Source of the DNA: an uncultured Opitutia bacterium
GTDB taxonomy: Bacteria > Verrucomicrobiota > Verrucomicrobiia > Opitutales > Opitutaceae
Length of the DNA: 60,840 nt
Assembly (NCBI GenBank): GCA_903839035.1
Contig: CAIMAQ010000023.1
Span: forward strand, 1-60,840
Direction: 5' to 3'
Of this stretch, positions 5,516-43,734 are shown piece after piece (within the stretch, counting starts at the first letter, position 1; each line of letters starts with the position of its first letter). The position numbers and the translations under genes are program-made. The notes under the pieces are model-generated. The model saw nothing but the letters and a program-made list of their open reading frames with translations. It did no database searches and was not told the DNA's origin.

Positions 5516-5540
5516 GATCTGAGCGCACCGCGCTCAGATC
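5516..5540. repeat. Perfect 11-bp hairpin overlapping the fabV stop codon
   Basis: GATCTGAGCGC and GCGCTCAGATC flank a 3-nt loop. The fabV stop codon (5534-5536 on the minus strand) lies inside one arm. There is no T tract. The core TGAGCGC-nnn-GCGCTCA is shared with the hairpin at the end of sufT (19814-19836), differing only in the loop. Confidence 0.8.
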
Positions 5541-6721
5541 ATCGGCACATGCGGCTCGACTTCGGCGTCGTAGTCCACGCCGGCGAGGCCGAAGCCGAAG
5601 TTCTTGAGGAACTCGACCCGGTAGCCGGCGATGTCGGTGGTCTGCTCGAGATTTTCCGTGGTGACGGTGGGCCAGATCTCACGGACCGCGGCCTGGATCT
5701 CGGGTATCATCTCGAGGTCGTCCACGCGGACGCGTCCGCCGGAGTCGAGGGTCAGCGACTTGCCGTTGTAGAGCTGCGTGGCGAAGAGCCGCTGCATCTG
5801 CTCGATGCAGCCCTCGTGTGTGCCGCGGGCCTTCATGAGCTTGTAGAGGATGGAAATGTAGAGCGGGACGACGGGGATGGCGGAGCTGGCCTGGGTGACG
5901 AGGGCCTTGTTGACGGAGATGAAGGCGCGGCCGCCGCCGAGGGCCTTGAGGGAGGCGTCGATGCTGCTGCCGGCGCGCTCAAGGTCGTTCTTGGCGAGGC
6001 CGATGGTGCCGTTCTTGTAGATGGCCCAGGTGACCTCGGGCCCGATGTAGGAATAGGCGACGGATGTGGCGCCGGGGGCGAGGAGGTTGGCGTCGCGCAG
6101 GGCGTTCATCCACATCTCCCAGTCTTCGCCGCCCATGACGGCGGCGGTGTCGGCGACTTCGGCCTCGATGGCAGGTTCGATGGTGACCTCGCTGACGATG
6201 CCCTTGTCAGTGTCGACCGTCTTGTTGGTGTAGGGGGCGCCGACGGGCTTGAGGCAGGACTTGTGCACGACGCCGGTGCGCGGGTGGGTGCGGCGGGGGG
6301 CGGCGAGCGAGTAGATGACGAGATCAACCTGGCCCATGTCGGCGCGGATGAGGTTGAGGGCCTGCTGCTTGATCTCATCGGTGAACGCGTCCCCCATGAT
6401 GTTCTTGGCGTAGAGGCCGGCGGCGCGGGCGGCGTTGGTGAAGGCGATGCTGTTGTACCAGCCCGGGGTGGCGGGGCGGCCCTCCTCGGAGGGGCGCTCG
6501 AAGAAGATGCCGAGCGTGGCGGCACCGGACCCGAAGGCGGCGGTGATGCGCGAGGCGAGGCCGTAGCCGGTGGAGGCGCCGATCACCAGGACCTTCTTGG
6601 GGCCGGGCTTGATGGGGCCCTTGGCCTTCACGTAGTCGATCCACTCTTGGACATGAGCGGCGCAGCCGGTGGGGTGGGCGGTGACGCAAACAAAGCCACG
6701 AACCTTGGGTTTGATGATCAT
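5534..6721 (-). CDS. fabV: Trans-2-enoyl-ACP/CoA reductase FabV
   Basis: A 395-residue protein, the usual FabV length. It catalyses the last, NADH-dependent step of each fatty-acid elongation cycle. VLVIGASTGYGLASRI (about 44-59) is the nucleotide-binding loop, and Tyr235 with Lys244 (YKNGTIGLAK) forms the Y-x8-K catalytic pair that separates FabV from FabI (Y-x6-K). The start MIIKPKVRGF at 6721 matches the family; a 67-residue upstream extension of the frame is derived from the dispersed repeat at 6826-6920 and was excluded. The gene ends inside a perfect hairpin. FabV enzymes are typically insensitive to triclosan. Confidence 0.95.
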   Translation of the reverse strand: MIIKPKVRGFVCVTAHPTGCAAHVQEWIDYVKAKGPIKPGPKKVLVIGASTGYGLASRITAAFGSGAATLGIFFERPSEEGRPATPGWYNSIAFTNAARAAGLYAKNIMGDAFTDEIKQQALNLIRADMGQVDLVIYSLAAPRRTHPRTGVVHKSCLKPVGAPYTNKTVDTDKGIVSEVTIEPAIEAEVADTAAVMGGEDWEMWMNALRDANLLAPGATSVAYSYIGPEVTWAIYKNGTIGLAKNDLERAGSSIDASLKALGGGRAFISVNKALVTQASSAIPVVPLYISILYKLMKARGTHEGCIEQMQRLFATQLYNGKSLTLDSGGRVRVDDLEMIPEIQAAVREIWPTVTTENLEQTTDIAGYRVEFLKNFGFGLAGVDYDAEVEPHVPMI

Positions 6722-6825
6722 GCGGCGGACAGGTTCCCCGGGGAGGGAACAAGGGGCAAGATTCAAAAAAGTAAGAAGGAAGAAGGAAGAACTAAGAAAT
6801 GACGGAATCATCCAACGCCCAAGGC

Positions 6826-6920
6826 CGATCGCGAAAGCACGGAGGGGCGGAAAAGGCAGGGAATCGAGCCGGCTGACGGATTGCCACGTCGCACCGGCGG
6901 TGCTCCTCGCAATGACAATC
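6826..6920. repeat. Composite palindromic repeat, copy 2 (A-B)
   Basis: Arm A (6826-6861, CGATCGCGAAAGCACGGAGG, then GGCGGAAAAGGCAGGG) is followed by core B (6878-6920: GGATTGCCACGTCGCACC ... CTCGCAATGACAATC). Purine-rich words (GAAGGAAGAAGGAAGA at 6776-6791) lie on one side and a pyrimidine-rich complement (CTTCAATCTTCCTTCC, about 6949-6964) on the other, in place of a clear A' arm. Located upstream of fabV and downstream of the anti-sigma gene. Confidence 0.8.
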
Positions 6921-6992
6921 AAGGGGGAAATCGCAAGCCGTCTGACTTCTTCAATCTTCCTTCCTGTTTCTGCCTTCGCGCCGTCGCGGTGC

Positions 6993-7841
6993 TCACTGGC
7001 TCAGCAGCACCATCGGGCCCTCGGCCTTGGGGACGCCGCCCTTGCGCTCGAGGCTGACGGCGAACTTGGCGACGGAGTTGACAGGGCGGTTGGCCTTGAA
7101 GGTGACGTGGGCGACACCGGTGGACGGATCCACGCGGAAGACGCCACCGTCCACTGGGATCGCGTACTGCGGGTCCACGAGCCAGAGCTGGTAATCCTTG
7201 TCGGGGGCGAGGGCGGGGAGTTTCTCGACGGTGAGGACGCCCTCCTGCTTGGCGGGATTCCAGACGGCGACGGCGAGGGCCTGCGGGGAGTTGCCGAGGA
7301 GGGAGGCGAGGGTGGAGATCTTGAACTGGGCGAGATCGCCCTCGGACTTGAGCTGTCGGTCGAGGGCGGCGAGCTGCTCGGTCATGGCGCTCAACTGGTG
7401 GCCGGCGATGAGGCGCTCGGCCTCGAGCTGGTTGCGGGCGCTCCGGAGCTCGAATTCGGCGAGCGCCTGCTGGTCGCGCAGCGTGGCGGCCTCGAAACGG
7501 CTGCCCAGGTAGAGCTGGCCGAGCCAGGCGCACGCAATGGTGAGAGACGCGGCGGCGGCCCACGGGAGCCAGACGGGCGTGCGGAACGGCAGGACGTTGG
7601 ATTGCTTGCGCCAGGCAGCGGCGGTGTCGAGGCGGTCGAGCAGGCGGGCGCGCAGTTCGGGCGAAGGGGCGGCGTCGGAGGCGGTGAAGGCGAGCTGGGC
7701 GGACGACTCGCGGAGTTCGCGTACGAGCTGGGCGGACGCGGGGTCGCGGGCGAGCTTCTGTTCGAAGGCGGCAAGCTCGGCGCCCTCGAGCAGGCCGAGG
7801 ACGTAGAGGGAGGCGAATTCCTCGAAGGTTTCGTCAATCAT
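6993..7841 (-). CDS. Anti-sigma factor, RskA-like
   Basis: A 282-residue protein. The N-terminal domain (MIDETFEEFASLYVLGLLEG..., about 1-70) matches the RskA/anti-sigma-K N-terminal helix bundle and lacks the HxxxCxxC zinc site of other anti-sigma factors. One transmembrane helix follows (WLPWAAAASLTIACAWLGQ, about 95-115), then a coiled-coil stretch and a periplasmic RskA C-terminal domain. It should hold the adjacent ECF sigma factor at the membrane until an envelope signal releases it. Its start overlaps the sigma gene by 8 nt, so the pair is translationally coupled. Confidence 0.88.
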   Translation of the reverse strand: MIDETFEEFASLYVLGLLEGAELAAFEQKLARDPASAQLVRELRESSAQLAFTASDAAPSPELRARLLDRLDTAAAWRKQSNVLPFRTPVWLPWAAAASLTIACAWLGQLYLGSRFEAATLRDQQALAEFELRSARNQLEAERLIAGHQLSAMTEQLAALDRQLKSEGDLAQFKISTLASLLGNSPQALAVAVWNPAKQEGVLTVEKLPALAPDKDYQLWLVDPQYAIPVDGGVFRVDPSTGVAHVTFKANRPVNSVAKFAVSLERKGGVPKAEGPMVLLSQ

Positions 7842-8514
7842 GGCGGCCTCCCAGGGTGTCGCGGAGCCGGAGCAGGCCGCGGCGGATGCGGGCCTTCACG
7901 GTGCCGAGGGGTTCACGGAGCTTTTCGGCGATCTCCTGCTGCGTGAGGCCGGAGAAGAAGGCGAGTTCGACGGCGCGCTGCTGGTCGGCGGGAAGCGCGG
8001 CGACGGCGGCGCGAACGGCGCCGGCCTGCTCCTTGAGCATGAGGCCGTCGGCGGAGTCGGGACCGGTGCCGGAAGGCTGCGTGCCAGCGTCCTCGGCGGT
8101 GGTCTCGGCGAGGAGTTCGCTGCGGCGCTTGCGCATGCGGACGCGGTCAATGGCGCGGTTGCGGGTGAGGGTGACGGCCCAGGCGAAGGCGGAGCCGCGG
8201 CCGGATTCGAAGGCGGCGGCTTTTTCCCAGAGGGCGAGGAAGACGTCCTGGACGATGTCCTCGGCCTCGGCGGAGTTGTGGAGGATACGCAGGGCGGTGG
8301 CGAAAAGCGGGCGGGAGAAACGGTCGTAGAGCTGGGCGAACGCCTCGCGGTCGCTGCGGCCCATGCGGCGCATGAGCTCGGCATCGAAGTGGGCGCGCTC
8401 GGCGGCGGCCACGGACTCGGGAGTGCTGCCGGCCGGGTTCATGCGGGCAAAAACGTCCCCCCACGCCGGTTGCACGGCGAAGTCACCGGACCAGCAAGGT
8501 GTGAGGGTGGACAT
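7834..8514 (-). CDS. ECF RNA polymerase sigma factor (SigK/SigL-like)
   Basis: A 226-residue protein. Sigma region 2 covers about 55-125 (FAQLYDRFSRPLFATALRIL, with AEDIVQDVFLALW as the core-binding/-10 recognition part) and region 4 about 165-220 (LPADQQRAVELAFFSGLTQQ, then EIAEKL and GTVKARIRRG as the helix-turn-helix). It directs RNA polymerase to an unknown regulon under control of the RskA-like protein. An internal ATG (residue 25) is an alternative start because the first 24 residues are not obviously conserved. It is the only dedicated regulator near the exosortase locus, but a link to that locus is only positional. Confidence 0.9.
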   Translation of the reverse strand: MSTLTPCWSGDFAVQPAWGDVFARMNPAGSTPESVAAAERAHFDAELMRRMGRSDREAFAQLYDRFSRPLFATALRILHNSAEAEDIVQDVFLALWEKAAAFESGRGSAFAWAVTLTRNRAIDRVRMRKRRSELLAETTAEDAGTQPSGTGPDSADGLMLKEQAGAVRAAVAALPADQQRAVELAFFSGLTQQEIAEKLREPLGTVKARIRRGLLRLRDTLGGRHD

Positions 8515-8679
8515 TCAGATATCATACGCGTGACCGGAAGCTTGGGATGCGGGGATGGTCGGGATTAGGGCGGGGGAAGCAAATGGAATTGGCGGAGGAT
8601 GATGGCGATGGGTGATAGGAGCTGGGACCTATGGGGCCTATGGGAGGGGACCGGAGGGAGTGGTGGAACGACCACGGAT

Positions 8680-8722
8680 GGATTGCCACGTCGCCCCTAA
8701 GGGCCTCCTCGCAATGACAATC
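8680..8722. repeat. Isolated core-B repeat (GGATTGCCACGTCG...GCAATGACAATC)
   Basis: The same B core as inside the composite repeats at 5.4, 6.9 and 14.7 kb, here without A arms. It abuts the stop codon of the 30-codon open frame at 8724-8816 and lies upstream of the sigma gene. The inner part has its own small palindrome CCCCTAAGGGCC. Confidence 0.75.
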
Positions 8723-8723
8723 T

Positions 8724-8816
8724 TTATAGGACGGCATACCCGATCAGGCCGAGGATGATCAGGACGGCGAGGACGGTCAGGATCTTCTTTTCCGAGGTGG
8801 TCAGGGGCAAAGGCAT
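8724..8816 (-). CDS. Putative 30-residue single-pass membrane peptide
   Basis: An ATG at 8816 opens a 30-codon frame ending TAA at 8724. The N-terminal part is MPLPLTTSEKK; residues 12-30 are almost entirely hydrophobic (ILTVLAVLIILGLIGYAVL), enough for one membrane helix, and the frame ends right there with no C-terminal tail. No Shine-Dalgarno sequence is present, but that is normal in this window. It lies between the exosortase fusion and the sigma factor, all on one strand. The clean amphiphilic layout argues for a real small protein; conservation could not be tested. Function unknown. Confidence 0.55.
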   Translation of the reverse strand: MPLPLTTSEKKILTVLAVLIILGLIGYAVL

Positions 8817-8892
8817 GGGCGGAAGAAGGGATAAGGGAGTAAGGGATATGGGGTAGGCAGAGGTGTCGCAGCGGGCAGAGGGTAATTAATCC

Positions 8893-8940
8893 GAGTTCAC
8901 GGAGTATCCTCGGCCCTCTCTGTGCTCCCACAGTGAACTC
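8893..8940. repeat. Inverted repeat GAGTTCAC...GTGAACTC downstream of the exosortase gene
   Basis: Perfect 8-bp arms flank 32 nt of word-like sequence (CTCGGCCCTCTCTGTGCTCC). It lies 18 nt beyond the exosortase stop and could act as a weak transcript-end stem or be another member of the dispersed palindromes. No T tract is seen. Confidence 0.5.
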
Positions 8941-8958
8941 AGTGCTCCGCGATCGAAT

Positions 8959-10656
8959 TCAGAGGCCGAGGGGTTGCAGGCGGGTGAAGAACGTTTCGAG
9001 GACGGGCTCGTGGGCGAGGTCGGCCCAGGGGCGGTTGCTGGAAACGCGGACGAAGAGCTGGTCGCCGTCATGGCGGAAGCCGTAGCGCCAGGCGAGGCGC
9101 AGGAGGGCGGCGGGGGAGTTGGTGCTCTGCTGCGTGATCGAGTGGCCGTCGTAGAGGTGCCAGTACCAGACGTTTTGCGGGAAATCTCCGCTGAGGAAGG
9201 AGCGCGACTCAGCCTCGGCGAGGCGGCGGCGACCGACGGCGAGGACCACACGGGGATCAGCCACGGGAACGGCTTCCCATCCGGAGCCCGGCCAGCACGC
9301 GTCGGGGGTGTGCGAGGAGACGAGGCTGACGGACGCCTGGCCGGGGCGCCAGTAGGCGAGATAGAGGATGATCTGTTCGGGTCCGCGGTCGGTCATCCGA
9401 GTGTAAGTCCGCTGAACCAGATGATCGGTGTGGAGCACGCCGCTGAACTGATAGAGGTCGCGGGCGGTCTCGACCTGCCAGCCCTCGGCGGCGGACGGCA
9501 GGATGGCGGCGAGATCGGGGACCGGGGCGTCACGGTGGAGCGCAGGGCGGGTGTTGGCGTAGAAGAAAAGGACGAGGACGGCGGCGAACGCCAAGCTGGA
9601 GACGAGGAGCCGGGAAACCAAGGAAGCAGGGACGACGGTCGACGGACTACTGACTACAGATTCCTGACCCCTGACTTCTGACCCCTGACTTCTGACCTCC
9701 GGTCGCTGATCGCTGCCCGCTGACGGCTGACCGCTATTTTTCCGCTCCAGCAGAAGGGCGAGGCCAACGAGCAGCGCGGCAGTCACGCCGAGAACGGCAA
9801 AGCCGGTGAGGTCGTGCCAGAAGCCCTCGATTTTGACGCCGGAGTTGGCGAGCAGAGTGAGGGTGAGCGAGCGAATGAAGTTCATCACGAGCGCAAGCGG
9901 GGGGGAGAGCCCGATCAGCAGCACGCGGGACCAGGGACGGCGGACGAGGCTGGCGGAGAAGAGCAGGCCGGCGAAGACGCAGGAGATGAGGCTGCGGACA
10001 CCGCTGCAGGCCTCCTCGATGCCGACGGTGGCCCCGCCGAGTTCGAGGATGTTACCATGGCGGACGGCAGCGATGCCGAGCAGGTGCAGGGAGCGCAGGA
10101 CGTTCTCCGTGACCATGAGCTGCAGGCCGAGGGTAAGCCGCGAGTAGGTGCCGGGAGGAATGGGCGCGCAAAGCAGCCACAGCGCGATCGCCGTGACGGC
10201 ACTCCAGTTGAAAGGAATGAAACGGATCGAGGTGGAGGAGAATACGAGGAGCCCCGCAGCCAGCAGGAGGACGAAGGAGAACGTCAGCGTGAAGCCGACC
10301 AGGTCGTGCGACCAGCCGAGGGAGGCGGCGTAGAGTCCGCCGGCGGCGAGGGCGAGGAGACCGAGGGCCAGGCAGGCGAGCAGGGAAGTGAGGGCGACCC
10401 ATTCGCCGCGCTGCGCTTGCTTAAGGTGATCGATCCTGGAGGATCGATCAGCGCCATGAAAACGGAGGGAGCCGCTGCGGCTTTCGCGCAGGAGGAGCAG
10501 GAAGATCACGGGCATGAAGTACCCGTGGGAGAGGTCGGGGTTTTGCTGCCAATGCGGCCAGAGGAGCAGGCCCAGCGCGAGGGTCAGCGCGACGAGCAGG
10601 ACCGCGCTCAGCTTGGTCGCGAGGGGGAGGCGCGTGAAAGGGGCCGGCGGGCTCAT
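8959..10656 (-). CDS. Exosortase fused to EpsI domain
   Basis: A 565-residue membrane protein. Residues 1-305 form a multi-pass exosortase core with the catalytic set Cys217 (EEACSGVRS), Arg262 (NFIRSLTL) and His281 (GFWHDLTGF). After a hydrophilic linker (about 308-343) and another transmembrane segment, residues 370-565 form an EpsI (DUF3485) domain with the conserved CWPGSGWE at 454-461. Exosortases are transpeptidases that process PEP-CTERM-like C-terminal sorting signals; fusion to EpsI is known in some exosortase types. The ATG at 10656 overlaps the upstream gene's stop (ATGA), so the two are coupled. The linker is encoded by a dispersed repeat. No PEP-CTERM substrate was recognised in the window. 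Confidence 0.92.
   Translation of the reverse strand: MSPPAPFTRLPLATKLSAVLLVALTLALGLLLWPHWQQNPDLSHGYFMPVIFLLLLRESRSGSLRFHGADRSSRIDHLKQAQRGEWVALTSLLACLALGLLALAAGGLYAASLGWSHDLVGFTLTFSFVLLLAAGLLVFSSTSIRFIPFNWSAVTAIALWLLCAPIPPGTYSRLTLGLQLMVTENVLRSLHLLGIAAVRHGNILELGGATVGIEEACSGVRSLISCVFAGLLFSASLVRRPWSRVLLIGLSPPLALVMNFIRSLTLTLLANSGVKIEGFWHDLTGFAVLGVTAALLVGLALLLERKNSGQPSAGSDQRPEVRSQGSEVRGQESVVSSPSTVVPASLVSRLLVSSLAFAAVLVLFFYANTRPALHRDAPVPDLAAILPSAAEGWQVETARDLYQFSGVLHTDHLVQRTYTRMTDRGPEQIILYLAYWRPGQASVSLVSSHTPDACWPGSGWEAVPVADPRVVLAVGRRRLAEAESRSFLSGDFPQNVWYWHLYDGHSITQQSTNSPAALLRLAWRYGFRHDGDQLFVRVSSNRPWADLAHEPVLETFFTRLQPLGL
9649..9735. repeat. Tandem CTGACTTCTGACCC-type repeat inside the exosortase gene
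   Basis: Successive CTGACTTCTGAC / CCTGACCCC units (9662-9697) are followed by CGCTGATCGCTGCCCGCTGAC and the 17-bp word GCTGACGGCTGACCGCT, which is also present at 5497-5513. On the coding strand it is read in frame as the low-complexity linker (about residues 315-341) between the exosortase and EpsI parts. Confidence 0.75.
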
Positions 10657-12179: not shown

Positions 12180-12239
12180 GAAGCTGACGTTAGGTGGCTG
12201 GGAAGGAAGAAGGAAGAATGAAGAATTCAGGACCAGCAG

Positions 12240-12420
12240 GATCGCGGAAGCGCGGAGGAGTGAAAATACCCGGAGACGGAAGCCGGAGGTCGGAATATTT
12301 TTAAGGGGAAGCCAGAAACCAGGAATCTGAGAACACCCTCAATCCGATGCCATATTCCCGGCTTCCCCATTTTAAAATCCTGGTTCCCGGTATTTTCGCG
12401 CGTCCGCGCTTCCGCGATAA
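12240..12420. repeat. Composite palindromic repeat, copy 3 (A-C-A')
   Basis: Arm A (12240-12271, GATCGCGGAAGCGCGGAGGAG then TGAAAATACCCGG) and arm A' (12383-12420, TTCCCGGTATTTTCGCGCGTCCGCGCTTCCGCGATAA in part) enclose a second inverted pair: GGGGAAGCC (12305-12313) and GGCTTCCCC (12360-12368). It fills most of the gap between the TPR gene and the glycosyltransferase, which are divergently transcribed, so both promoters must lie in or beside it. Confidence 0.85.
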
Positions 12421-12470
12421 CGATTGGGAGCAGAGTTGCGCGCAGGCATGCAAACGGCATTTTTGGCCGG

Positions 12471-13202: not shown

Positions 13203-13249
13203 GGCGGAGATTAAGAGTTGGGAATTAGGATGGAGGAAGTCAGACCCGA

Positions 13250-13705: not shown

Positions 13706-13727
13706 GGCAGACGAAGGCCGGACGGGA

Positions 13728-14582: not shown

Positions 14583-14613
14583 GCGGAGGAAGGGCAGCAA
14601 AGGGGAAAAAGGC

Positions 14614-14799
14614 GGATCGCGAAAGCGCGGAATTTTAAAAAATACCGATCGCGGAAACGCGGAGGAGCGGAAAAGGCAGGGGGATCCAAGGCAACTGATG
14701 GATTGCCACGTCGTCCCTGCGGGACCGTCCCTGCGGGACTCCTCGCAATGACAATCAGAATTCCCGGTATTTCCGCTCCTCGGCGTTTCTGCGCTTATA
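14614..14799. repeat. Composite palindromic repeat, copy 4 (A-A-B-A')
   Basis: A short A copy (14614-14630), a full arm A (14647-14681, CGATCGCGGAAACGCGGAGG and on), core B (14700-14756) and arm A' (14761-14799). Inside core B the 13-mer GTCCCTGCGGGAC occurs twice. Arm A' runs into the end of the DUF4336 gene, so its stop codon (14795-14797) is part of the repeat. Confidence 0.85.
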
Positions 14800-15469: not shown

Positions 15470-15518
15470 GGCGGGTAAGTAAGAAGGAAGAAGGCAGAAT
15501 TAAGAAGTCCGGAAATGC

Positions 15519-15695
15519 GGATCGCGGAGACGCGGGGGAGCGGAAATGGCGGGAGTCGGAGACAGGAAATCTAAGGGGGTAGCCATGAAACACTACCGGA
15601 TGCCTTGTTCCTGGCTTCATGGCTTCCCCCTAAACCTGCCTGAAATTTTCTTCCCGCCATTTCCGCTCCTCCGCGTTTCCGCGTTTCCGCGATAA
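15519..15695. repeat. Composite palindromic repeat, copy 5 (A-C-A')
   Basis: Arm A (15519-15554, GGATCGCGGAGACGCGGGGG then AGCGGAAATGGCGGGA) and arm A' (15651-15695, ending TTTCCGCGTTTCCGCGATAA) enclose inner arms TAAGGGGGTAGCCATGAA (15572-15589) and TTCATGGCTTCCCCCTAA (15616-15633). A purine-rich word, AAGAAGGAAGAAGGCAGAAT (15481-15500), precedes it, as near 6.78 and 12.2 kb. It fills the gap between two minus-strand genes. Confidence 0.85.
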
Positions 15696-15705
15696 AAGGG
15701 CTGGC

Positions 15706-17199: not shown

Positions 17200-17325
17200 G
17201 GGGAGGGACAATGGAGGGTTCTGCGGATCATCGCAAACCGTACTTGAGCAGTTTTCGTGACAACCGGGTGATAATCGTGGGGGTGGCCGAGGAGGGCGGG
17301 CATGTTCCGGTGCCCGCAGGTCAAG

Positions 17326-17373
17326 GTGGGTTGCCTGCTGGCGGGCAACGTTGCGGGCCAGCGCGCAACCCAC
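17326..17373. repeat. 48-bp near-perfect palindrome between divergent genes
   Basis: Two 24-nt arms meet without a loop: the left begins GTGGGTTGCCTGCTGGC and the right ends GCCAGCGCGCAACCCAC, centred on GCAACGTTGC. Twenty of 24 positions pair. It is preceded by a shorter hairpin, GCGGGCA...TGCCCGC (17297-17318). It sits in the 258-nt gap upstream of both sppA and the conserved 497-residue protein, so it could be a regulatory site or cruciform; similar words recur at 22.9 kb. Confidence 0.75.
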
Positions 17374-17457
17374 GACTTGCCCGTCCAGCCCGACTTAAGA
17401 CCGCTTGACGCGTTTCGACTGGAGGAAGGGGAAAAAGCGCGTAGCTTAGCCCGACAC

Positions 17458-19281
17458 ATGAAGAATTTCTTTACCTCGATGCTGGGGGCGCTGGTTGCGC
17501 TGATCATTTTCACCGGCGGCGGGCTGCTGCTCTTCATCGGCTTCATCGGCGCGATCGCGGCGATGAGCGGCGAAAACAAGCCGGTTGTGATGGAACGCGG
17601 CTCCTACCTGGTCTTTAACCTCGACGCCAACATCACCGACGCGCCACCGCGGGTGGATTTCAGCGCCTTCACGAACGACAACCGGCCGGAGACGCTGCAG
17701 TTGCGCAGCGTGACACGCGCGCTGCGTGCGGCGGCGAAGGACGACCGTATTGTCGGCGTACTGATGACGGGTTCGCTCTCGTCCGGCGGCTACGGCAACG
17801 GCTATGCGGCGCTGAAGGAAGTGCGCAACGCACTCGAGGACTTCAAGGCGGCCGGCAAGCCGGTGAAGGCCTACCTGACCTTTGCGGACAAGAAGGATTA
17901 CTACCTGGCCTCGACGGCCAACGACCTGGTGCTGGACCCGTACGGGATGATCCTGCTGCCGGGCCTCGCGAGCGAGCCGATGTTCTATGCGGGGGCGTTC
18001 GAGAAATTTGGCATCGGCATCCAGGTCACGCGCGTGGGCAAATACAAATCCTACGTCGAGCCCTTCACCCGCAAGAACATGAGCCCGGAGAACCGCGAGG
18101 AAGTCCAGAAGCTGCTCGACGACGTCTGGGGCAGCCTCGTGGCGGACATCGCGCAGAGCCGCGGCCTCACGCCGGCGGCGCTGCAGGCGACGGTGGACGC
18201 CGAGGGGCTGGTCCGCGCCGAGGCCGCGAAGACGGCGAAGCTCGTGGACCGGATTGCCTACCGCGACGAGGTGATTGACGAACTCAAGGCCAAGACCGGC
18301 CGCAAAGGCGCGAAAGAAACTTTCAAGCAGATCAGCCTCGCCGCGTACGCGAAGATCGCGCCGGACAAGATGGACACCACCAAGCACGGGGTGACGCCGA
18401 CGCGCGGCCAGAACATCGCGCTGGTTTACGCCGAGGGTGCGATCGTGGACGGCGAGGGGGACGTCGGGGAGATCGGCGGCACCAAGTTTGCGCGCGAACT
18501 CCGCCAGCTCCGCCAGAACGACAGCATCAAGGCGATCGTCCTCCGTGTGAACAGCCCGGGTGGCAGCGCCACGGCCTCGGAGGCCATCCAGCGCGAACTC
18601 CGCCTGGCCCGGAAGGTGAAGCCCGTGATCGTCTCGATGGGCAGCTATGCCGCGTCGGGCGGCTACTGGATTTCGGCGTACGGCGACCGCATCTTTGCCG
18701 AACCGACGACCATCACCGGTTCCATCGGTGTGTTTGGCATCCAGTTCGACGTGCAAAAGCTCGCGAACAACCTCGGCTTCACCTTCGACAGCGTGAAGAC
18801 GGGCAAATTCGCCGACGCGCTGACGATCTCCCGGCCGAAGACGGACGAGGAACTCGCGGTCTTCCAACGCATGGTGGACTGGATCTACGGCGAGTTTGTC
18901 GGCAAGGTCGCCGATGCGCGTCACCTGAAGCTCGATTTCGTGAAGGAGATTGCGCAGGGCCGCGTCTGGTCCGGCACCGAAGCCAGGAAGCTCGGGCTGG
19001 TGGACGAGATCGGCGGGCTGGATGCCGCGGTGAAGTACGCCGCGGAGAAGGCCGGGCTGGGTTCGAACTACCGGCTCGTGGAATATCCGCGCAAGAAGGA
19101 GTTCGGCGAGGCGATCGCGGAGATAATCGAGCGGTTCAACCCGCAGAATGCCCACGCGCAAAGCACGGGCATCGTCGCCGAGATTACGAAGCGCCTCGAG
19201 GCCGAGCTGGGCGTGCTAAAGACCTTCAACGACCCGCAGGGCGTGTATGCGCGCCTGCCCATGGAACTCGCCATTCACTGA
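17458..19281 (+). CDS. sppA: Signal peptide peptidase SppA, 67-kDa type
   Basis: A 607-residue protein with an N-terminal signal anchor (MKNFFTSMLGALVALIIFTG) and two tandem ClpP-like domains, the long Gram-negative form. Lys197 in GKYKSYVEPF and Ser400 in MGSYAASGGYW correspond to the Lys-Ser dyad of E. coli SppA, split between the two halves. It degrades signal peptides left in the membrane after export. The ATG at 17458 was chosen because it begins the membrane anchor; a 52-residue upstream extension would put palindromic repeat sequence in the protein. sufT follows 10 nt downstream. Confidence 0.94.
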   Translation: MKNFFTSMLGALVALIIFTGGGLLLFIGFIGAIAAMSGENKPVVMERGSYLVFNLDANITDAPPRVDFSAFTNDNRPETLQLRSVTRALRAAAKDDRIVGVLMTGSLSSGGYGNGYAALKEVRNALEDFKAAGKPVKAYLTFADKKDYYLASTANDLVLDPYGMILLPGLASEPMFYAGAFEKFGIGIQVTRVGKYKSYVEPFTRKNMSPENREEVQKLLDDVWGSLVADIAQSRGLTPAALQATVDAEGLVRAEAAKTAKLVDRIAYRDEVIDELKAKTGRKGAKETFKQISLAAYAKIAPDKMDTTKHGVTPTRGQNIALVYAEGAIVDGEGDVGEIGGTKFARELRQLRQNDSIKAIVLRVNSPGGSATASEAIQRELRLARKVKPVIVSMGSYAASGGYWISAYGDRIFAEPTTITGSIGVFGIQFDVQKLANNLGFTFDSVKTGKFADALTISRPKTDEELAVFQRMVDWIYGEFVGKVADARHLKLDFVKEIAQGRVWSGTEARKLGLVDEIGGLDAAVKYAAEKAGLGSNYRLVEYPRKKEFGEAIAEIIERFNPQNAHAQSTGIVAEITKRLEAELGVLKTFNDPQGVYARLPMELAIH

Positions 19282-19291
19282 GCCCACGCGC

Positions 19292-19819
19292 ATGACCCAC
19301 ACATTGGTTCGCGATTGTCCGGCCACGGCGATTCCGGCGGGGAGCGCCGTCACGCTGCCGGCGGGCACGGAAGTTTTCGTCACCCAGACCCTGGGCGGCA
19401 ACATCACGGTCCGGACGGACCACGGCCTGCTGCGCATCGCGGCGGAAAACGCCGGCGCCATCGGCGGTTATTCGCCGAAGGAGGAGGAAGCGGCCGTGGC
19501 GGCCGGTGAGTTCAGCGAACCGGCCGTCTGGGCGGCACTGAAGACCTGCTTTGATCCGGAAATCCCGGTGAACATCGTGGATCTGGGTCTGGTGTATGAC
19601 CTGGCAGTGGAAAAGACGGCCGGCGGCCATACGATCGAGGTGAAGATGACCTTGACGGCGCCAGGCTGTGGCATGGGGCCGACGATTGCGGAGGATGCGC
19701 GGCAGAAAATCGCCGCGCTGCCGACCGTGGAGGCGGCGAAGGTGCACATCGTCTGGGACCCGATTTGGACGCCACAGATGATTTCGCCGGAAGGCCGGAA
19801 GGTGCTGGGGCTGGAGTGA
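19292..19819 (+). CDS. sufT: SufT-type Fe-S assembly protein (MIP18/DUF59 domain)
   Basis: A 175-residue protein. Residues about 1-70 form the SufT-specific N-terminal domain (MTHTLVRDCPATAIPAGSAV, then GGNITVRTDHGLLRIAAENA); residues 75-175 are a DUF59/MIP18 domain with CFDPEIPVNIVDLGLVYDL and LTAPGCGMGPTIAEDAR, where the Cys is the conserved one needed in this family. SufT helps deliver or mature iron-sulfur clusters. No other suf gene is in the window. The gene lies 10 nt behind sppA and ends inside a perfect hairpin that contains its stop codon. Confidence 0.9.
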   Translation: MTHTLVRDCPATAIPAGSAVTLPAGTEVFVTQTLGGNITVRTDHGLLRIAAENAGAIGGYSPKEEEAAVAAGEFSEPAVWAALKTCFDPEIPVNIVDLGLVYDLAVEKTAGGHTIEVKMTLTAPGCGMGPTIAEDARQKIAALPTVEAAKVHIVWDPIWTPQMISPEGRKVLGLE

Positions 19820-19836
19820 GCGCGGGGCGCTCACTC
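19814..19836. repeat. Perfect 10-bp hairpin overlapping the sufT stop codon
   Basis: GAGTGAGCGC, loop GGG, GCGCTCACTC. The sufT stop (TGA, 19817-19819) is inside the left arm. It shares the TGAGCGC/GCGCTCA core with the hairpin at the end of fabV. Confidence 0.85.
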
Positions 19837-20002
19837 GGGGATCGAAGATCGGGGATCGTAGTTCGGCCCAGCCGACTGTCTCCGGGTATCTGCCTTTGAC
19901 GCTGCGATTGGACGAAAAATCGGCTGACTCGAAGATGCGAATTGTCGGTACAATGCAGTGCAGACCTCCAACCCGATCTGCGATCTCCGAACTTCGATCT
20001 CC
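19837..20002. repeat. Inverted word repeat between convergent sufT and larA
   Basis: The left arm (19837-19866, GGGGATCGAAGATCGGGGAT then CGTAGTTCGG) and the right arm (19971-20002, GATCTGCGATCTCCGAACTT then CGATCTCC) are imperfect reverse complements about 30 nt long, enclosing about 100 nt. The word GATCGAAGATC/GATCTTCGATC recurs with variation. Both flanking genes end in stop-codon hairpins immediately outside this repeat. Confidence 0.8.
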
Positions 20003-20023
20003 GCGTAGCCCTTTGGGCTACGC
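20003..20023. repeat. Perfect 9-bp hairpin overlapping the larA stop codon
   Basis: GCGTAGCCC, loop TTT, GGGCTACGC. The larA stop (TAG, read from 20020-20018) lies inside one arm. No T tract follows on the minus strand. Confidence 0.85.
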
Positions 20024-21280
20024 CAGGTACGGGATCGTCAGCGGGCCCTCGGGAAGGATGGCGATGGGGGCGTCACGGCCGATCCGGGCAAGTTCGGCGT
20101 CGAGGGCGGCGCGGATGTCATGAACGGGTGTCAGGTGGGCGCGGTGCACGTCGGCGTCGGAGAGTTCGCTGAAGAGGGCGACCCGGGCCTTGACGAGAAT
20201 CATGGCGAGATGCTGCGCCTGCCACTGGTCCAGCACGGAGAAGCCGGGAGTCAGGATGCGGTCGAGCATTTCCTGGGCGGACTTGGATTCCTCGATGAGC
20301 TTGCGGAAGTTGCCGTGGGCGGGGAAGCCATCGTTGCAGCGGGCGGCGGTGAGGATGAGCCCGCCGGGGGTGACGATGCGGGCGGCGGCGGCCATGCCCT
20401 TGACGGTCTGGTAGAGGCTTTGGTCGAGCGGGAAACCGCTGTTGGTCGTCACCACGATCGGAAAAGGATGCGGGCAGGCGGCCATGGCGGTGGCCTTGAC
20501 GAAGGCGCAGCCGGCGCGGTGGGCCTCGAGGGTTTCGCCGCAAAAGAAGCGCGTGATCTGGCGGCGGGTGTTGAGGGTGACGTTGAGGCAGAAATCCACC
20601 GGGAGGAGTGAACCCCCGGCGCGGACGTGGCGCTGCGTGGGGTTGTCCTCGAGTTCGCCCCAGGTGCTGCGCGGGTCGCCGATGACACTGGCCCCGTGGT
20701 AGTGCATGATGGCGTCGAGCGAAGCGATGCCCGGGAAGACGGCTTTGTAGCCGCCCGAGAAGCCGGCCATAAAGTGCGGCTCGATGAAGCCGAGGAGAAT
20801 GCGGCGGTCGGCGGCAACGTAGTCCTTGGCGAAGCGCACCTCGTAGCCCAAGGCGGAGCGGCCGGCGGAAGCCACGGTGGAGTCGTCGGTGGAACTGTGG
20901 TTCACGACCCGGTAGTTGCGCGCGACGGCGGGGCTGAGCATGGCATCGAGCTCGGCGGGGGTGTTGGGCCGATGCGAACCGGTGCCGACAATGATGGTGA
21001 AGTTTTCGCGCGGGACATGCGCGAGCTCCGCAAAGACCCAGAGCAGCAGGCGATCGCTGGGCAGCGGGCGCGTGCCGTCGGGGATGACGACCGCGACTTT
21101 GTCGCTGGCGGCGATCGAGTCGCGCAACGGCGGGCAGCCGATCGGGGCCCGGGCCGCCGCGGTGAAGGCAGCCTGCTCATCGGGGAGGCCCTCGATAAAT
21201 TTGGGCGCGAGAATGGTCGCGTTAAGGCCGGTGAGATCGAGTTCGAGGCCCGTCGTGCCGTAATCGAGATGCACCTTCAT
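20018..21280 (-). CDS. larA: Nickel-pincer lactate racemase family protein (LarA-like)
   Basis: A 420-residue protein. Conserved LarA elements: VVIPDGTRPLP (about 68-78), IIVGTGSHRPNT with the catalytic His, and GFIEPHFMAGFSGGYKAVFPG, where the His, the GGYK lysine (pincer cofactor anchor) and a following MHYH stand. LarA enzymes epimerise lactate or other 2-hydroxyacids with a nickel-pincer nucleotide made by LarB, LarC and LarE, none of which is in this window. Substrate may be lactate or another hydroxyacid. The start overlaps the dus stop by 4 nt (ATGA), so it is the last gene of a coupled run. Confidence 0.9.
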   Translation of the reverse strand: MKVHLDYGTTGLELDLTGLNATILAPKFIEGLPDEQAAFTAAARAPIGCPPLRDSIAASDKVAVVIPDGTRPLPSDRLLLWVFAELAHVPRENFTIIVGTGSHRPNTPAELDAMLSPAVARNYRVVNHSSTDDSTVASAGRSALGYEVRFAKDYVAADRRILLGFIEPHFMAGFSGGYKAVFPGIASLDAIMHYHGASVIGDPRSTWGELEDNPTQRHVRAGGSLLPVDFCLNVTLNTRRQITRFFCGETLEAHRAGCAFVKATAMAACPHPFPIVVTTNSGFPLDQSLYQTVKGMAAAARIVTPGGLILTAARCNDGFPAHGNFRKLIEESKSAQEMLDRILTPGFSVLDQWQAQHLAMILVKARVALFSELSDADVHRAHLTPVHDIRAALDAELARIGRDAPIAILPEGPLTIPYLA

Positions 21281-22380
21281 GCGGTAATCGTTTCGAGCGA
21301 ACAGCCATCCGTCAGCACCGAAGGCGTCTCACAATTTGGCCTCGCGATGACCCCGGGATAGGGCTCCGGCGCGAATTCGCGGGCCGGTTCGGCCAGCAAA
21401 TGCCGGTCGCACACCTCGAAAAGCGCGGCCTCGGACTCGGTGCGACGCATGTCGTGCAGGAAGGCGCCGGTGGCGTCCACGCTCTGGCCGACGAAATTAA
21501 GGTACTTCTTCATTTTGTTCACGTGCAGTCGGTCGGGCAGGCCGGGAACCGTGGTGGCGCGATACAGCCGCTCGATGTACTCGCGGACATCGGCGAGGGT
21601 CACGCGGGTGACGGGCCGGCCCTCAAACTGTTCGCGGCACTGGCGGAAGATCCACGGGTTGCGGATGGCGTGGCGGCCGATCATCACGCCGGCCGCCTTG
21701 GTTTCGTCGAGGATGGCAGTGGCGCGGGGGGCGGAGAGGACGTTGCCGTTGGCAAGGACGGGGCAGCGAACGCGGGTGACAGCGCGGGCAATGGCGTCGT
21801 AGTGCACCTCGCTGCGGTACATTTCCTTCACCGTGCGGCCGTGGATGGTGAGGAGGTCGACGCGGTGCGCGTTCACGAGCTCGAGGATGCGCTCGAGGTT
21901 GACGGTGTCATCGAAGCCGATGCGCATCTTGACGGTGAAGAGCCCGGGGATGGCGGCGCGGAGGGCGCCGAGGATCTCGTCGATCTTCGCCGGCTCGCGC
22001 AGGAGGCCGCCGCCGACGTTTTTCTTGTACACCTTGGGGGCGGGGCAGCCGAGGTTGAGGTCAATGCCGGCGACCGGGTGCCGCAGCAGCTCGGTGGCGG
22101 TGCGGGTCAGGTGCGTGATATCCTCGCCGATCAGCTGCGCGAAGACGGGTCGGCCGGTGGCGTTCTCGTCGATGGAGCGGAGGATGTGCTTCTCCGGGTG
22201 GGACTGGGCGTGAACGCGGAAGAACTCGGTGAAAAAATAGTCGGGGGCGCCGTAGTGGGAGATGACCGACATGAACGCGAGGTCGGTCACGTCCTGCATC
22301 GGCGCGAGGGCGGTGAGCGGGCGGCCGGGCTGCTGGCCGGCGGGAAGGTGGGTGGCGGGTTCCACCGGATCAGACCTCAT
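21277..22380 (-). CDS. tRNA-dihydrouridine synthase
   Basis: A 367-residue protein of Dus family (FMN-dependent reduction of uridine to dihydrouridine in tRNA D-loops). LTALAPMQDVTDLAF at the N-terminus, GIDLNLGCPAPKVYKKNVGG with the catalytic Cys, LTIHGRTVKEMY with the conserved His, and GVMIGRHAIRNPW for the FMN phosphate are all visible. The C-terminal helical tRNA-binding domain is present. The ATG at 22380 overlaps the preceding nuclease gene by 11 nt; a longer frame upstream is an artefact of that overlap. Which uridine it modifies is not predictable. Confidence 0.93.
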   Translation of the reverse strand: MRSDPVEPATHLPAGQQPGRPLTALAPMQDVTDLAFMSVISHYGAPDYFFTEFFRVHAQSHPEKHILRSIDENATGRPVFAQLIGEDITHLTRTATELLRHPVAGIDLNLGCPAPKVYKKNVGGGLLREPAKIDEILGALRAAIPGLFTVKMRIGFDDTVNLERILELVNAHRVDLLTIHGRTVKEMYRSEVHYDAIARAVTRVRCPVLANGNVLSAPRATAILDETKAAGVMIGRHAIRNPWIFRQCREQFEGRPVTRVTLADVREYIERLYRATTVPGLPDRLHVNKMKKYLNFVGQSVDATGAFLHDMRRTESEAALFEVCDRHLLAEPAREFAPEPYPGVIARPNCETPSVLTDGCSLETITA

Positions 22381-22849
22381 CCTCGGTGGATTCCTCGCCG
22401 GCTTCCTCCGCCTTCTTCCGGCGCATCTGCGCGAGGATCTCCGTATAGTCGTCGGCGTCATCGAAGACGCCGCGAGCCACGAACAGCGGCCGCTTTTGCT
22501 GGAGGGCCAGGACGATCGAGTCACTGGGCCGGGCATCGAGCTCGACGATCTTCTTCCCCAGTTCGTTTTCCATCCGGAGAATGATGCGGGCGAAGAACGT
22601 GCCCTCGCGGGCGTCATTGATGACGATGTGGTCGAGCTTGGTGTCGAGGCCGAGCATGATGCTGCCGATGAGGTCGTGGGTGAGCGGGCGCTCCTTTTTC
22701 ACGCCGTCGAGGGTCATCTGGATGGCGTTGCCCACGGAGTGGTCGACGTAGATCACGAAAGTCTTGGACCCGTCGCCGAGGAACACGGCGCAGCCGTTGG
22801 CGGTGGGCATCACGCCTTTCACGGTCACGGAGACTACTTCCGGTTTCAT
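22370..22849 (-). CDS. Bifunctional nuclease family protein (DUF151/BFN)
   Basis: A 159-residue protein with the BFN domain: VVSVTVKGVMPTANGCAVFL, LTHDLIGSIMLGLDTKLDHI, GTFFARIILRMENE and the key DARPSDSIVLALQ motif. The C-terminus is a charged tail rich in Glu and Lys. Plant BFN1-like and related bacterial proteins of this fold have nuclease activity reported for some members; for most bacterial ones the role is unproven. It heads the coupled set dus-larA, so all three may be co-expressed. Confidence 0.85.
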   Translation of the reverse strand: MKPEVVSVTVKGVMPTANGCAVFLGDGSKTFVIYVDHSVGNAIQMTLDGVKKERPLTHDLIGSIMLGLDTKLDHIVINDAREGTFFARIILRMENELGKKIVELDARPSDSIVLALQQKRPLFVARGVFDDADDYTEILAQMRRKKAEEAGEESTEDEV

Positions 22850-22902
22850 GCCGGGAACATGGGGAGCCGGGCAGTAAAGCGCAAGCGGGTCATGGCCACC
22901 GT

Positions 22903-22953
22903 GGGTGGCGCGTTGGCACGCCACCCCCAGGGTGGGATCAGCAATCCCGCCCT
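22903..22953. repeat. Two adjacent GGGTGG-type hairpins
   Basis: GGGTGGCG...CGCCACCC (22903-22926) and AGGGTGGGAT...ATCCCGCCCT (22929-22953) lie side by side in the 107-nt gap between lpxI and the BFN gene, the second one only 4 nt past the lpxI stop codon. Words resemble those in the 17.3-kb palindrome. They could end the lpxI transcript; no T tract is seen. Confidence 0.65.
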
Positions 22954-22956
22954 GGA

Positions 22957-23802
22957 TCACTCAAACCCCAGTAAATTGATACCCCACGTCTTGGCCTGGG
23001 CGAGGACGGCGGAACGGTCGAGGAGGATGACCCGGCCGGCCTCGAGGGCGGCGGACGCGATGCCGGCCTCGCGCATGGTCTCGAGGGTGCGCGTGCCGAA
23101 GCACGGGACGTCGAAGCGGTAGTCCTGGCGCGCCTTGACGGTTTTGACGAAGAGCGTGTGGTCGGTCTTGAGGGTGCCGGCGCGGCGGAGCATCTCGTCG
23201 GTGCCCTCGAAAGCCTCGACGGCGAGAACGGTGCCCTTGCGGACGACGCAGCCCTGGCCGATGTCGAGGCGGGCGCATTCGCGGGCGATGCGGATGCCGT
23301 GGTCAAGGTAGTCCTGTTCGATGGGAAAACTGCGGCCGGTCATGCTGCCGGGCGTGGCGAGGTGGGCATCGAGGAACGAGCGGGCGTCGAGCAGGGTGAC
23401 GCCGAGGTCGGTGATCTCCTGCGCGATGGCGCCGAAGATGGTCTCGGCGTTGCGGCGCTTGAGGGAGAGCAGGATCTTCGTGGCCTTGAGGTCGGGATGC
23501 AGGCCCTTGAAGAGGCGCTTCGGAGTGATCTGGCCGGCCATGAGGGCGTAACCGGCGTCAAAGTCCTTGAGGGCCTTGAGCATCTTGCCGAGCTGGCCGA
23601 CGAGGAGGGTGCGGCGGTCGGATTCGGGGAATGAGGTGATGAGCTCGGGGCGGGTTTCCTCGTCGAAGGCGACGAGTCGCAGCGGGATGCCGGCCGCGCG
23701 GATGGCCTGGGCGACGAGGACCGGGTAGATGCCCTGGCCGGCGATGAGCGCCACGGGGCGCTTGGGGTCGAAGCCGGAGGGGAGAAACGCGGAGAGGGGC
23801 AC
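22957..23802 (-). CDS. lpxI: UDP-2,3-diacylglucosamine pyrophosphatase LpxI
   Basis: A 281-residue protein (GTG start at 23802), the usual LpxI size. The N-terminal domain reads VALIAGQGIYPVLVAQAIRA; the C-terminal DUF1009 domain has LDARSFLDAHLATPGSMTGR, GQGCVVRKGTVLAVEAFEGT and DVPCFGTRTLETMREAGI. LpxI hydrolyses UDP-2,3-diacylglucosamine to lipid X in lipid A synthesis, replacing LpxH in many bacteria. The in-frame ATG 54 nt upstream would add residues encoded by an inverted repeat and was rejected. It shares its strand with the export operon, but a 135-nt palindromic gap lies between. Confidence 0.92.
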   Translation of the reverse strand: MPLSAFLPSGFDPKRPVALIAGQGIYPVLVAQAIRAAGIPLRLVAFDEETRPELITSFPESDRRTLLVGQLGKMLKALKDFDAGYALMAGQITPKRLFKGLHPDLKATKILLSLKRRNAETIFGAIAQEITDLGVTLLDARSFLDAHLATPGSMTGRSFPIEQDYLDHGIRIARECARLDIGQGCVVRKGTVLAVEAFEGTDEMLRRAGTLKTDHTLFVKTVKARQDYRFDVPCFGTRTLETMREAGIASAALEAGRVILLDRSAVLAQAKTWGINLLGFE

Positions 23803-23809
23803 GGGAAAA

Positions 23810-23921
23810 GTTGAAAGGTGAAAGTTGGGGAAGTTGGAAGACCAAACCTTGGGCAACTATGATCTGGGCAAAGGTTTGGTGCGCTCGGGCGACTTTCAAC
23901 CTTCACCTTTCAACTTTCAAC
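23810..23921. repeat. Nested inverted repeat upstream of lpxI
   Basis: Outer arms GTTGAAAGGTGAAAGTTG (23810-23827) and CAACCTTCACCTTTCAAC (23898-23915) enclose inner arms CCAAACCTT (23842-23850) and AAGGTTTGG (23871-23879). It lies between the BY-kinase stop hairpin and lpxI. Like the A-B-A' elements it is a palindrome within a palindrome, but built from different words. Confidence 0.8.
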
Positions 23922-23922
23922 C

Positions 23923-23939
23923 GAGCCGCGCAGCGGCTC
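23923..23939. repeat. Perfect 7-bp hairpin overlapping the BY-kinase stop codon
   Basis: GAGCCGC, loop GCA, GCGGCTC. The BY-kinase stop TGA (23940-23938 on the minus strand) shares two bases with the stem. It is the fourth such 3-nt-loop hairpin at a gene end in this window. Confidence 0.75.
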
Positions 23940-43731: not shown

Positions 43732-43734
43732 AAA

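Follow-up and report, generated by a model that had tools for sequence, protein, structure and literature searches.

In one group of bacteria, mostly uncultured and placed in the Opitutaceae by their relatives, some genes end in hairpins that contain or directly follow the stop codon, and these gene-end hairpins are real and more frequent than base composition predicts. The class is lineage-specific. We tentatively read the hairpins, with a probability of about 0.43, as inverted copies of gene ends: template switching on a folded-back strand would have produced them, and they would then have been retained at the gene border, perhaps because they act as a barrier at the mRNA end.

In the window (the whole 60,840-nt stretch of DNA analysed, from an uncultured Opitutia bacterium), direct reading and a palindrome scan recovered all four stop hairpins described in a first-pass annotation, at the ends of fabV, sufT, larA and a BY-kinase gene. 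The triloop stems of sufT (10 bp), larA (9 bp) and the BY-kinase gene (7 bp) are as described there; the fabV hairpin exists but is larger, spanning 5515-5541 with 12 bp rather than 5516-5540 with 11 bp. The stem contains the whole stop codon at fabV, sufT and larA, and two of its three bases at the BY-kinase gene, as had been claimed. The large word palindromes said to border the hairpins do have an arm directly next to those of sufT, larA and the BY-kinase gene, but not to that of fabV, where the arm is 27 nt away. The features are:

5344-5371, no strand: word-palindrome arm downstream of fabV, partner 5460-5487
5460-5487, no strand: word-palindrome arm downstream of fabV, 27 nt from the stop hairpin
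5515-5541, minus strand: fabV stop hairpin, perfect 12-bp stem, 3-nt loop, stop TGA 5534-5536 in the 5' arm
5534-6922, minus strand: fabV (enoyl reductase) ORF, Pfam PF12241/PF12242/PF07055
19292-19819, plus strand: sufT-like gene (FeS_assembly_P, Pfam), ORF start possibly 19247
19814-19836, plus strand: sufT stop hairpin, perfect 10-bp stem, 3-nt loop, TGA 19817-19819 inside
19837-19866, no strand: word-palindrome arm between sufT and larA, partner 19973-20002
19973-20002, no strand: word-palindrome arm between sufT and larA, partner 19837-19866
20003-20023, minus strand: larA stop hairpin, perfect 9-bp stem, 3-nt loop, TAG 20018-20020 inside
20018-21280, minus strand: larA (lactate racemase family, Pfam)
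23807-23827, no strand: word-palindrome arm between the BY-kinase gene and lpxI, partner 23897-23917
23897-23917, no strand: word-palindrome arm beside the BY-kinase stop hairpin, partner 23807-23827
23923-23939, minus strand: BY-kinase stop hairpin, perfect 7-bp stem, 3-nt loop, two bases of TGA 23938-23940 inside
23938-26094, minus strand: BY-kinase-like gene (Pfam gives a P-loop NTPase domain only; the kinase name comes from the first-pass annotation)
43734-43757, plus strand: extra stop-abutting hairpin, 10 bp, 4-nt loop, GGCGGGGTC/GACCCCGCC core, absent from the first-pass annotation

The extra hairpin begins 2 nt past the stop of a UbiA-family gene (42835-43731), and the true start of fabV is probably nearer 6766, several relatives aligning from residue 53. 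The window has eight distinct perfect triloop palindromes of at least 7 bp, and the four at stops are the four hairpins. The pattern TGAGCGC-N3-GCGCTCA, shared by fabV and sufT, has seven sites in 12 genus genomes, all at called gene ends; the genome of the window (G000) has two, both within the window. Predicted RNA folds are strong for most of the nine stretches folded: that of the fabV hairpin (a 44-nt stretch) reaches -25.7 kcal/mol, matched by none of 200 shuffles, and that of the BY-kinase hairpin is unexceptional by itself (37 of 200 shuffles equally good).

The enrichment check proposed with the first description was run on 1.07 of the 3.39 Mb of G000, which gave 852 stops outside the window, and the hairpin class proved commoner at stops than in shuffles of equal composition. 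Genes were called with a purpose-built hexamer caller rather than taken from standard annotation; nine of 70 G000 stretches (eight wholly N, and L008 with 29% N) and stops less than 120/200 nt from a stretch end were dropped, and the P values quoted are raw and for the most part post hoc. Within the window, four stop-in-stem triloop hairpins compare with 0.02 expected when the downstream DNA is shuffled. At the 852 outside stops, we counted six stop-in-stem hairpins with a 3-nt loop, at least 9 Watson-Crick pairs and at most one mismatch (0.30 in composition-matched shuffles), two with a perfect stem (0.78 in shuffles, 16 of 100 of which reach two) and 13 perfect triloop hairpins that abut the stop, beginning just past it (0.75 in shuffles). 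Measured against the overall non-coding palindrome rate, an excess is left for the abutting class alone (13 versus 3.0); the strict stop-in-stem class stays below expectation (2 versus 7.4), and gene starts have fewer hairpins than that rate predicts (3 versus 11.7). Positional counts, in which 10 of 296 perfect palindromes (at least 7 bp, loops 3-8) overlapped stops with about 5.5 expected (1.85% of positions being in reach), and 14 of 530 in a larger sample where the caller missed sufT, were too blunt, and shuffle tests were used instead.

Chance was rejected as the source of the class. It may still have produced the crowding within the window: that four hairpins fall there is in part luck (post-hoc Poisson p 0.015 when near-stop triloops are counted and 0.13 when every loop size is).

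The loop is preferentially 3 nt long, in 13 of 19 stop-in-stem hairpins at 19 distinct stops (at least 9 Watson-Crick pairs, at most one mismatch) and in 10 of 16 without the window. Among perfect hairpins of at least 8 bp, triloops make up 18/38 near stops, 5/41 of those with a T tail and 56/267 in coding DNA; the share at +9 to +150, with the T tail absent or unsorted, is 37/115 (p 0.12 against near stops). Stems of at least 9 bp occur in 9/19 near-stop triloops versus 14/139 coding ones, and are also frequent in other non-coding triloops (13/33). GNA-type loops occur in 8/19 near-stop triloops of G000, versus 16/139 in coding and 6/33 in other non-coding DNA, but in 2/8 in the relatives.

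At the end of fabV, the stop hairpin differs between species, and in four of them an arm copies that species' own gene end. The stem is 12 bp in G000, 14 bp in G008 and 15 pairs plus one mismatch in G010; in the Opitutaceae MAG L188, 16 perfect pairs extend 9 nt into the CDS, with a TAG stop. G002, whose protein is 97% identical, has a TAG stop and an unrelated 9-bp stem that holds the stop only. The four sites at which the G008 and G004 hairpins differ all lie in the non-coding arm, and at each of them G008 is perfectly paired; as with the G000 sufT hairpin and its bulged version in G009, a perfect arm here faces an imperfect counterpart at the same place in a close relative, a mark of template-switch hairpins. 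By our reading, G-U pairing would tolerate three of these four differences, which would fit upkeep at the RNA level, and the G000 and G008 arms share most letters, making common descent possible for that pair. From at least 582 fabV loci in named genomes we took the best 80, less L235 (incomplete match) and L207 (short); one of these 78 has a stop-in-stem and two have an abutting hairpin, so that most fabV genes in this set have none, and at least five (L179, L181, L182, L185 and L187) appear to overlap genus genomes already counted.

When the final 15 coding nt are taken together with the stop, their inverted copies number 10 in the relatives versus 4.9 for mismatched pairs (3 versus 0.1 at a length of at least 10), an excess that rests partly on fabV and L125 cases. 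There is no excess in G000 (14 versus 13.5; 2 versus 4.4 at a length of at least 9). G009 has a 25-bp perfect triloop stem that surrounds a REP-like core and copies 9 nt of CDS, in a 54-nt spacer; the predicted fold of its bulged sufT hairpin is no better than shuffles (50/200). Hairpins occur at 1 of 149 stops from other genera (G058 and G073), compared with 43 of 852 in G000 (p 0.005), so that in this small sample the class is no family-wide trait, and at 0 of 99 stops in G028, from another family. The G017 stretches had been picked for motif sites already known in them and do not make a fair sample.

We infer the following route. A short self-complementary seed at or just past the stop, such as GCGC-nnn-GCGC, would let a strand turn back on itself while DNA is being replicated or repaired, leaving a minimal loop of 3 nt, and the polymerase would then copy the gene's own end (the stop, sometimes the last codons) into the spacer, yielding a perfect inverted copy in one event. 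Such products would be purged in coding DNA and survive at the border of gene and UTR, where a tight hairpin at the ORF end could perhaps stop 3'-to-5' exonucleases after cuts further downstream. The peak at the gene border suggests that the hairpins are also kept there; a purely mutational process alone would not yield a +3 to +8 peak above the non-coding rate. Template switching that makes perfect hairpins is already published (PMC8794818), and on this reading our hairpins would resemble its products, and those of quasipalindrome mutation in E. coli (PMC7202029), in having perfect reverse-complement arms that arise or are corrected in a single step. What differs is the anchoring to stop codons at orthologous bacterial gene ends, a class not described in the papers that we found. 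The rRNA data reported in PMC8794818 favour 4-nt loops and are depleted of 3-nt loops, a preference that counts against a template-switch reading of triloops. We consider unlikely the stronger proposal of a module, in which a stop inside a self-templated perfect triloop would be joined to a purine-rich word arm and fold-back would keep regenerating the hairpin from the last codons.

Selection at the RNA level, by which T-less hairpins at mRNA 3' ends would be built and maintained base by base because they hold up exonucleases or ribosomes where the ORF ends, is somewhat unlikely. The peak right past stops, the deficit at starts, the strong folds and the recurrence at fabV all speak for it, as does a preference for convergent ends in G000 outside the window (12/96 versus 13/253 at spacers of at least 70 nt, p 0.019), but this preference is not significant at spacers of at least 100 nt (8/64 versus 12/182, p 0.11) and is absent in the relatives (4/70 versus 7/118). 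Further against it are the wholly different G002 stem despite the near-identical protein, and loops without strand asymmetry (purine:pyrimidine 143:138, compared with 69:155 for T-tailed hairpins). As weaker evidence, there is no G-U preference near stops: the G-U:A-C ratio of internal mismatches at 8 or more pairs is 2:8 there versus 17:7 at +9 to +60, a contrast that weakens at 9 or more pairs (2:3 versus 10:5), with coding DNA itself at 1:12. No clear signature at the RNA level emerged. The position of the hairpins is nonetheless compatible with the earlier suggestion that they may block ribosomes or exonucleases. All four are within 15 nt of the stop, a position shared by E. coli REPs reported to cause ribosome stalling (Liang et al. 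2015, cited in PMC12306157); these likewise place a hairpin on or next to the stop, but our four are not a repeat family.

It is quite improbable that the hairpins are REPs, GTAG-tagged palindromes moved by a RAYT, whose insertion at gene ends puts a hairpin on the stop. Such elements are reported to be abundant in Opitutus terrae (Di Nocera et al. 2013, PMC3733652), and that a GTAG REP often supplies the TAG stop is already published there. In G000, one GTAG-tagged pattern gives 43 strand matches (its reversed-pattern control gives none), and the genome encodes two Y1 transposases (Y1_Tnp), one above and one below the NCBIfam REP-transposase cut-off NF047646. Six of its 19 near-stop triloop hairpins are dispersed repeats (at least 4 matches), some being GTAG-tagged REPs whose TAG is the stop; TAG belongs to a GTAG tag before the hairpin at four G000 stops and one G008 stop, and is over-represented at stops with abutting hairpins (9/28 in G000, p 0.018; 3/7 in relatives, p 0.17). 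However, hairpins are not more frequent at GTAG stops than at the remaining TAG stops (5/54 versus 5/84; 3/43 versus 3/41), and our four are not among the repeats. They share with GTAG REPs short stems, short loops and a place at gene ends, but they hold the stop within the stem and lack an unpaired GTAG tag (none lies beside the fabV, sufT and BY-kinase stems, and the larA GTAG is paired in the stem). Their single copy at up to 2 mismatches in the 1.07-Mb sample refutes membership of the high-copy REP family, and the 17-nt core pattern of the larA hairpin occurs just once among 12 genomes.

Intrinsic terminators of the U-tract-less ('I-shaped') kind are a very unlikely explanation. T-less hairpins past stops are common in bacteria (PMC8355165), and ours resemble those reported there in being GC-rich, without a T tract and at gene ends, but differ in their 3-nt loop, the absence of a strand signature and a perfect stem able to enter the coding region. 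The earlier statement that the hairpins are not ordinary terminators is supported: by reading, none of the four has a T tract, their class has a T tail in 2/63 cases near stops versus 45/160 at +9 to +60 (background about 9%, 36/399), and the loops show no strand bias. An E. coli terminator a few nt from a stop is reported to be almost fully repressed (PMC4824070).

Finally, it is highly improbable that the large word-palindrome element prefers the hairpins for insertion or leaves them behind as by-products: purine-rich DNA follows them more often than expected (p 3.5e-5) and they are associated with long inverted repeats in G000 (11/26 versus 51/267, p 0.009), which would fit the earlier idea that the element makes them, but the association is absent in the relatives (3/11 versus 46/152), and the suggested role as its target site is not supported, given hairpins without a word palindrome in L125 and at G009 sufT (bulged, in a 33-nt sufT-larA spacer) and the G009 25-bp hairpin in its 54-nt spacer.

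The finding joins three fields that usually stand apart: stop-codon hairpins, REP elements and template-switch mutation. Such a class would escape terminator finders tuned to U tracts. Orthologous ends such as those of fabV form a natural series for asking if a single copying step can give rise to a bacterial 3'-end hairpin and if that process also renews it. If the module reading were true, structure and position would persist while the sequence, even the stop codon, is replaced, and a functional RNA 3' end would owe its upkeep to a mutational mechanism.

Direct reading and a palindrome scan located all four stop-codon hairpins that the first-pass annotation had placed at the ends of fabV, sufT, larA and the BY-kinase gene, with one correction, to the fabV stem, which has 12 bp rather than 11:

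5515-5541, fabV stop hairpin, 12-bp stem

The 5′ arm holds the entire stop codon in fabV, sufT and larA, and two of its three bases in the BY-kinase gene; as had been stated, no T tract follows (0/4). The window is the whole of contig C23 of the source genome, G000 (3.39 Mb, 126 contigs), and the nearest fabV relatives among named records are mostly Opitutaceae/Opitutae MAGs, on which its family placement rests.

To gauge enrichment, we drew on two samples. For G000, the window was combined with 61 of 70 fetched stretches (1,072,395 bases), which gave 905 usable stops, 53 of them the window’s own; for relatives, 35 stretches (464,233 bases) gave 392 stops, 224 window-syntenic and 168 elsewhere. 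In the null model the downstream side was dinucleotide-shuffled and the coding side kept fixed. At the 852 G000 stops outside the window, perfect triloop (3-nt loop) hairpins beginning +3 to +8 from the stop, hereafter abutting, numbered 13 vs 0.75 expected, hairpins with stop-codon bases in the stem and loops of 4–8 nt 14 vs 4.0, and strict stop-in-stem triloops 2 vs 0.78. With up to one mismatch, stop-in-stem triloops numbered 6 vs 0.30 at no fewer than 9 Watson-Crick pairs (60 shuffles, highest 2) and 5 vs 0.07 at 10 or more pairs, two of these five (stretches L023 and L112) being or containing repeats. For the class as a whole, enrichment over shuffled sequence is borne out. The relatives’ 168 non-syntenic stops gave 3 in-stem (0.32 expected) and 3 abutting triloops (0.12 expected), loops of 4–8 nt not being in excess over shuffles. 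Measured against the non-coding palindrome rate, abutting triloops in G000 are still in excess (13 vs 3.0, p = 1.5e-5) and stop-in-stem triloops are not (2 vs 7.4); the relatives yielded 3 vs 1.0 (p = 0.09) and 3 vs 2.6, respectively. Around start codons, hairpins are scarcer than this rate predicts (3 vs 11.7). There is, therefore, a real stop-anchored class of hairpins with its centre just downstream of the stop. The four window hairpins form the inner edge of this class; that they crowd together in one window is partly luck.

Stop-in-stem hairpins of at least 9 pairs occur at 19 of 1297 stops in G000 and relatives, with loops of 3, 4, 5, 6, 7 and 8 nt in 13, 2, 2, 1, 0 and 1 cases (triloops are 10/16 once the window’s three are excluded). 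Where the stem is perfect and has 8 bp or more, triloops make up 18/38 near-stop (in-stem or abutting) hairpins vs 5/41 T-tailed hairpins at +9 to +60, 56/267 coding hairpins and 37/115 other non-coding hairpins (p = 0.12 for the last). Thus, the triloop preference near stops stands out clearly from terminators and coding DNA but less so from other T-less spacer hairpins.

A T tail, defined as at least four T among 8 nt, follows 2/48 near-stop hairpins in G000 and 0/15 in relatives, as compared to 32/116 and 13/44 at +9 to +60 (background 36/399). On the transcript strand, the loops of T-tailed hairpins lean heavily towards pyrimidines (69 purines : 155 pyrimidines), while near-stop loops show no such bias (143:138). 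These hairpins are, as first proposed, not terminators of the usual kind. In hairpins with 8 or more pairs, the G-U:A-C ratio of single internal mismatches is 2:8 close to stops vs 17:7 farther downstream (Fisher p = 0.0098), a weak contrast, since it is 2:3 vs 10:5 at 9 pairs and the coding control is itself A-C rich (1:12). For an E. coli terminator a few nt from the stop, repression is reported as almost complete (PMC4824070). A 12-bp hairpin 3′ of the adenosylhomocysteinase gene (AAACCCGCGCCG-AATC-CGGCGCGGGTTT, window 38350-38377) resembles an ordinary terminator and offers a handy contrast.

GTAG-tagged REPs, palindromic repeats moved by RAYT transposases, often supply TAG stop codons and are highly enriched in O. 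terrae (PMC3733652). G000 encodes a REP-type transposase and has 43 strand matches to the tagged-palindrome pattern (control 0), one pair being the same palindrome read both ways. At some G000 stops the TAG is that of the tag; hairpins are no commoner at GTAG stops than at other TAG stops. Six of 19 near-stop triloop hairpins have at least four matches in the G000 sample. We ruled against the four window hairpins being GTAG REPs: unlike these multi-copy elements with an unpaired tag, each is single copy in the G000 sample and lacks an unpaired tag.

The shared motif TGAGCGC-N3-GCGCTCA has seven sites across 12 genus genomes (reversed-pattern control, 1), its TGA being the stop of a called gene (hexamer-based caller) at six; at the seventh, in G008, the called gene runs on to a TAG in the 3′ arm. 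A wider scan of 132 genomes from the order gave 12 sites (3 for the control). The five in-family sites, two of them G000’s, all terminate long open frames (at least 331 codons for the three new ones), and none of the seven outside the family terminates a 100-codon frame. An arm-swapped control motif gave 8 sites, one after a frame of at least 100 codons.

Across orthologues (23 window genes in 12 genomes; 181 stop-by-genome cases), the hairpin score reached 8 or more in seven cases: fabV in four species, and sufT, larA and lpxI in G000 alone. The fabV end carries a 12-bp stem in G000, a 9-bp stem of unrelated sequence with a TAG stop in G002 (protein 97% identical), 14 bp in G008 and 15 pairs plus one mismatch in G010; G004 has an imperfect form of the G008 hairpin, the within-hairpin differences being confined to the non-coding arm. 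Named genomes contributed 78 fabV ends. One of these, from an Opitutaceae MAG (L188), has TAG as its stop and forms 16 perfect pairs that extend 9 nt into the coding sequence; two of the remaining 77 have an abutting hairpin. The sufT hairpin was found in 0/10 relatives by ungapped scan, G009 having a bulged version in a 33-nt sufT-larA spacer, and the larA hairpin in 0/9; for the BY-kinase gene, 5/10 relatives have some different 6-7-bp hairpin at or just past the stop. A G009 gene (L125, 16741-17277, minus strand) ends in a 25-bp perfect triloop stem that crosses the stop, copies the gene end and encloses a REP-like core, GGCGGGTC-GAA-GACCCGCC; it is missing from both homologues found, in G011 and G007.

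DNA 3′ of hairpins is often purine-rich (median 0.58 for 42 hairpin genes vs 0.52 for 569 controls; at least 0.72 in 11/42 vs 48/569, and in 10/22 triloops). Hairpins and long inverted repeats are associated in G000 (11/26 vs 51/267) but not in relatives (3/11 vs 46/152). In stretch L115, a convergent pair is arranged in the same way as sufT-larA.

Some side observations concern word palindromes, the larger inverted repeats. In the sufT-larA spacer (window 19837-20002; L044, L048, L049, L050, L091) the palindrome differs between several genus species (GATCGAAG.., GTCAGAGG.., GAGTGACGAG.., CGCGAAGGGC..), its location conserved and its sequence swapped; by eye, no long one was seen in G009, G001 or G006. 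Also by eye, the centre of the palindrome at 15523-15683 appears inverted between G000 and G005 (L072) with arms unchanged, which may reflect arm-to-arm recombination or fold-back flipping. CGCGGAAACGCGGAGGAGCGGAAA and variants lie at 5344-5487, 12241-12418, 14650-14793 and 15523-15683, and are dispersed in at least six genus genomes (G002, G004, G005, G008, G009, G010). Nested within word palindromes are ATTGCCACGTCG...CTCCTCGCAATGACAATC repeats (14700-14757, 6880-6921, 5400-5450); related ATTGCGAGG repeats occur at other loci. The first arm of significant 3′-region inverted repeats tends to be purine-rich (above 0.6 in 26 vs below 0.4 in 5, n = 56, in G000; 24 vs 1, n = 45, in relatives).

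In the open-access literature searched, no account was found of Opitutaceae stop codons enclosed by triloop hairpins. Arms that match a species’ own gene end, perfect pairing, minimal loops and multi-base differences make fold-back template switching, a process published for other genomes (PMC8794818), the best candidate for the maker of the stop hairpins. Against this, inverted gene-end copies are in excess in relatives only (10 vs 4.9) and not generally in G000 (14 vs 13.5), other spacer hairpins also have long stems (13/33), and the template-switch data reported in PMC8794818 favour 4-nt loops. The peak at the gene border calls for retention there: hairpins would be made by fold-back template switching and then kept at the border, where a putative role as an exonuclease barrier or in a ribosome-related function is plausible.
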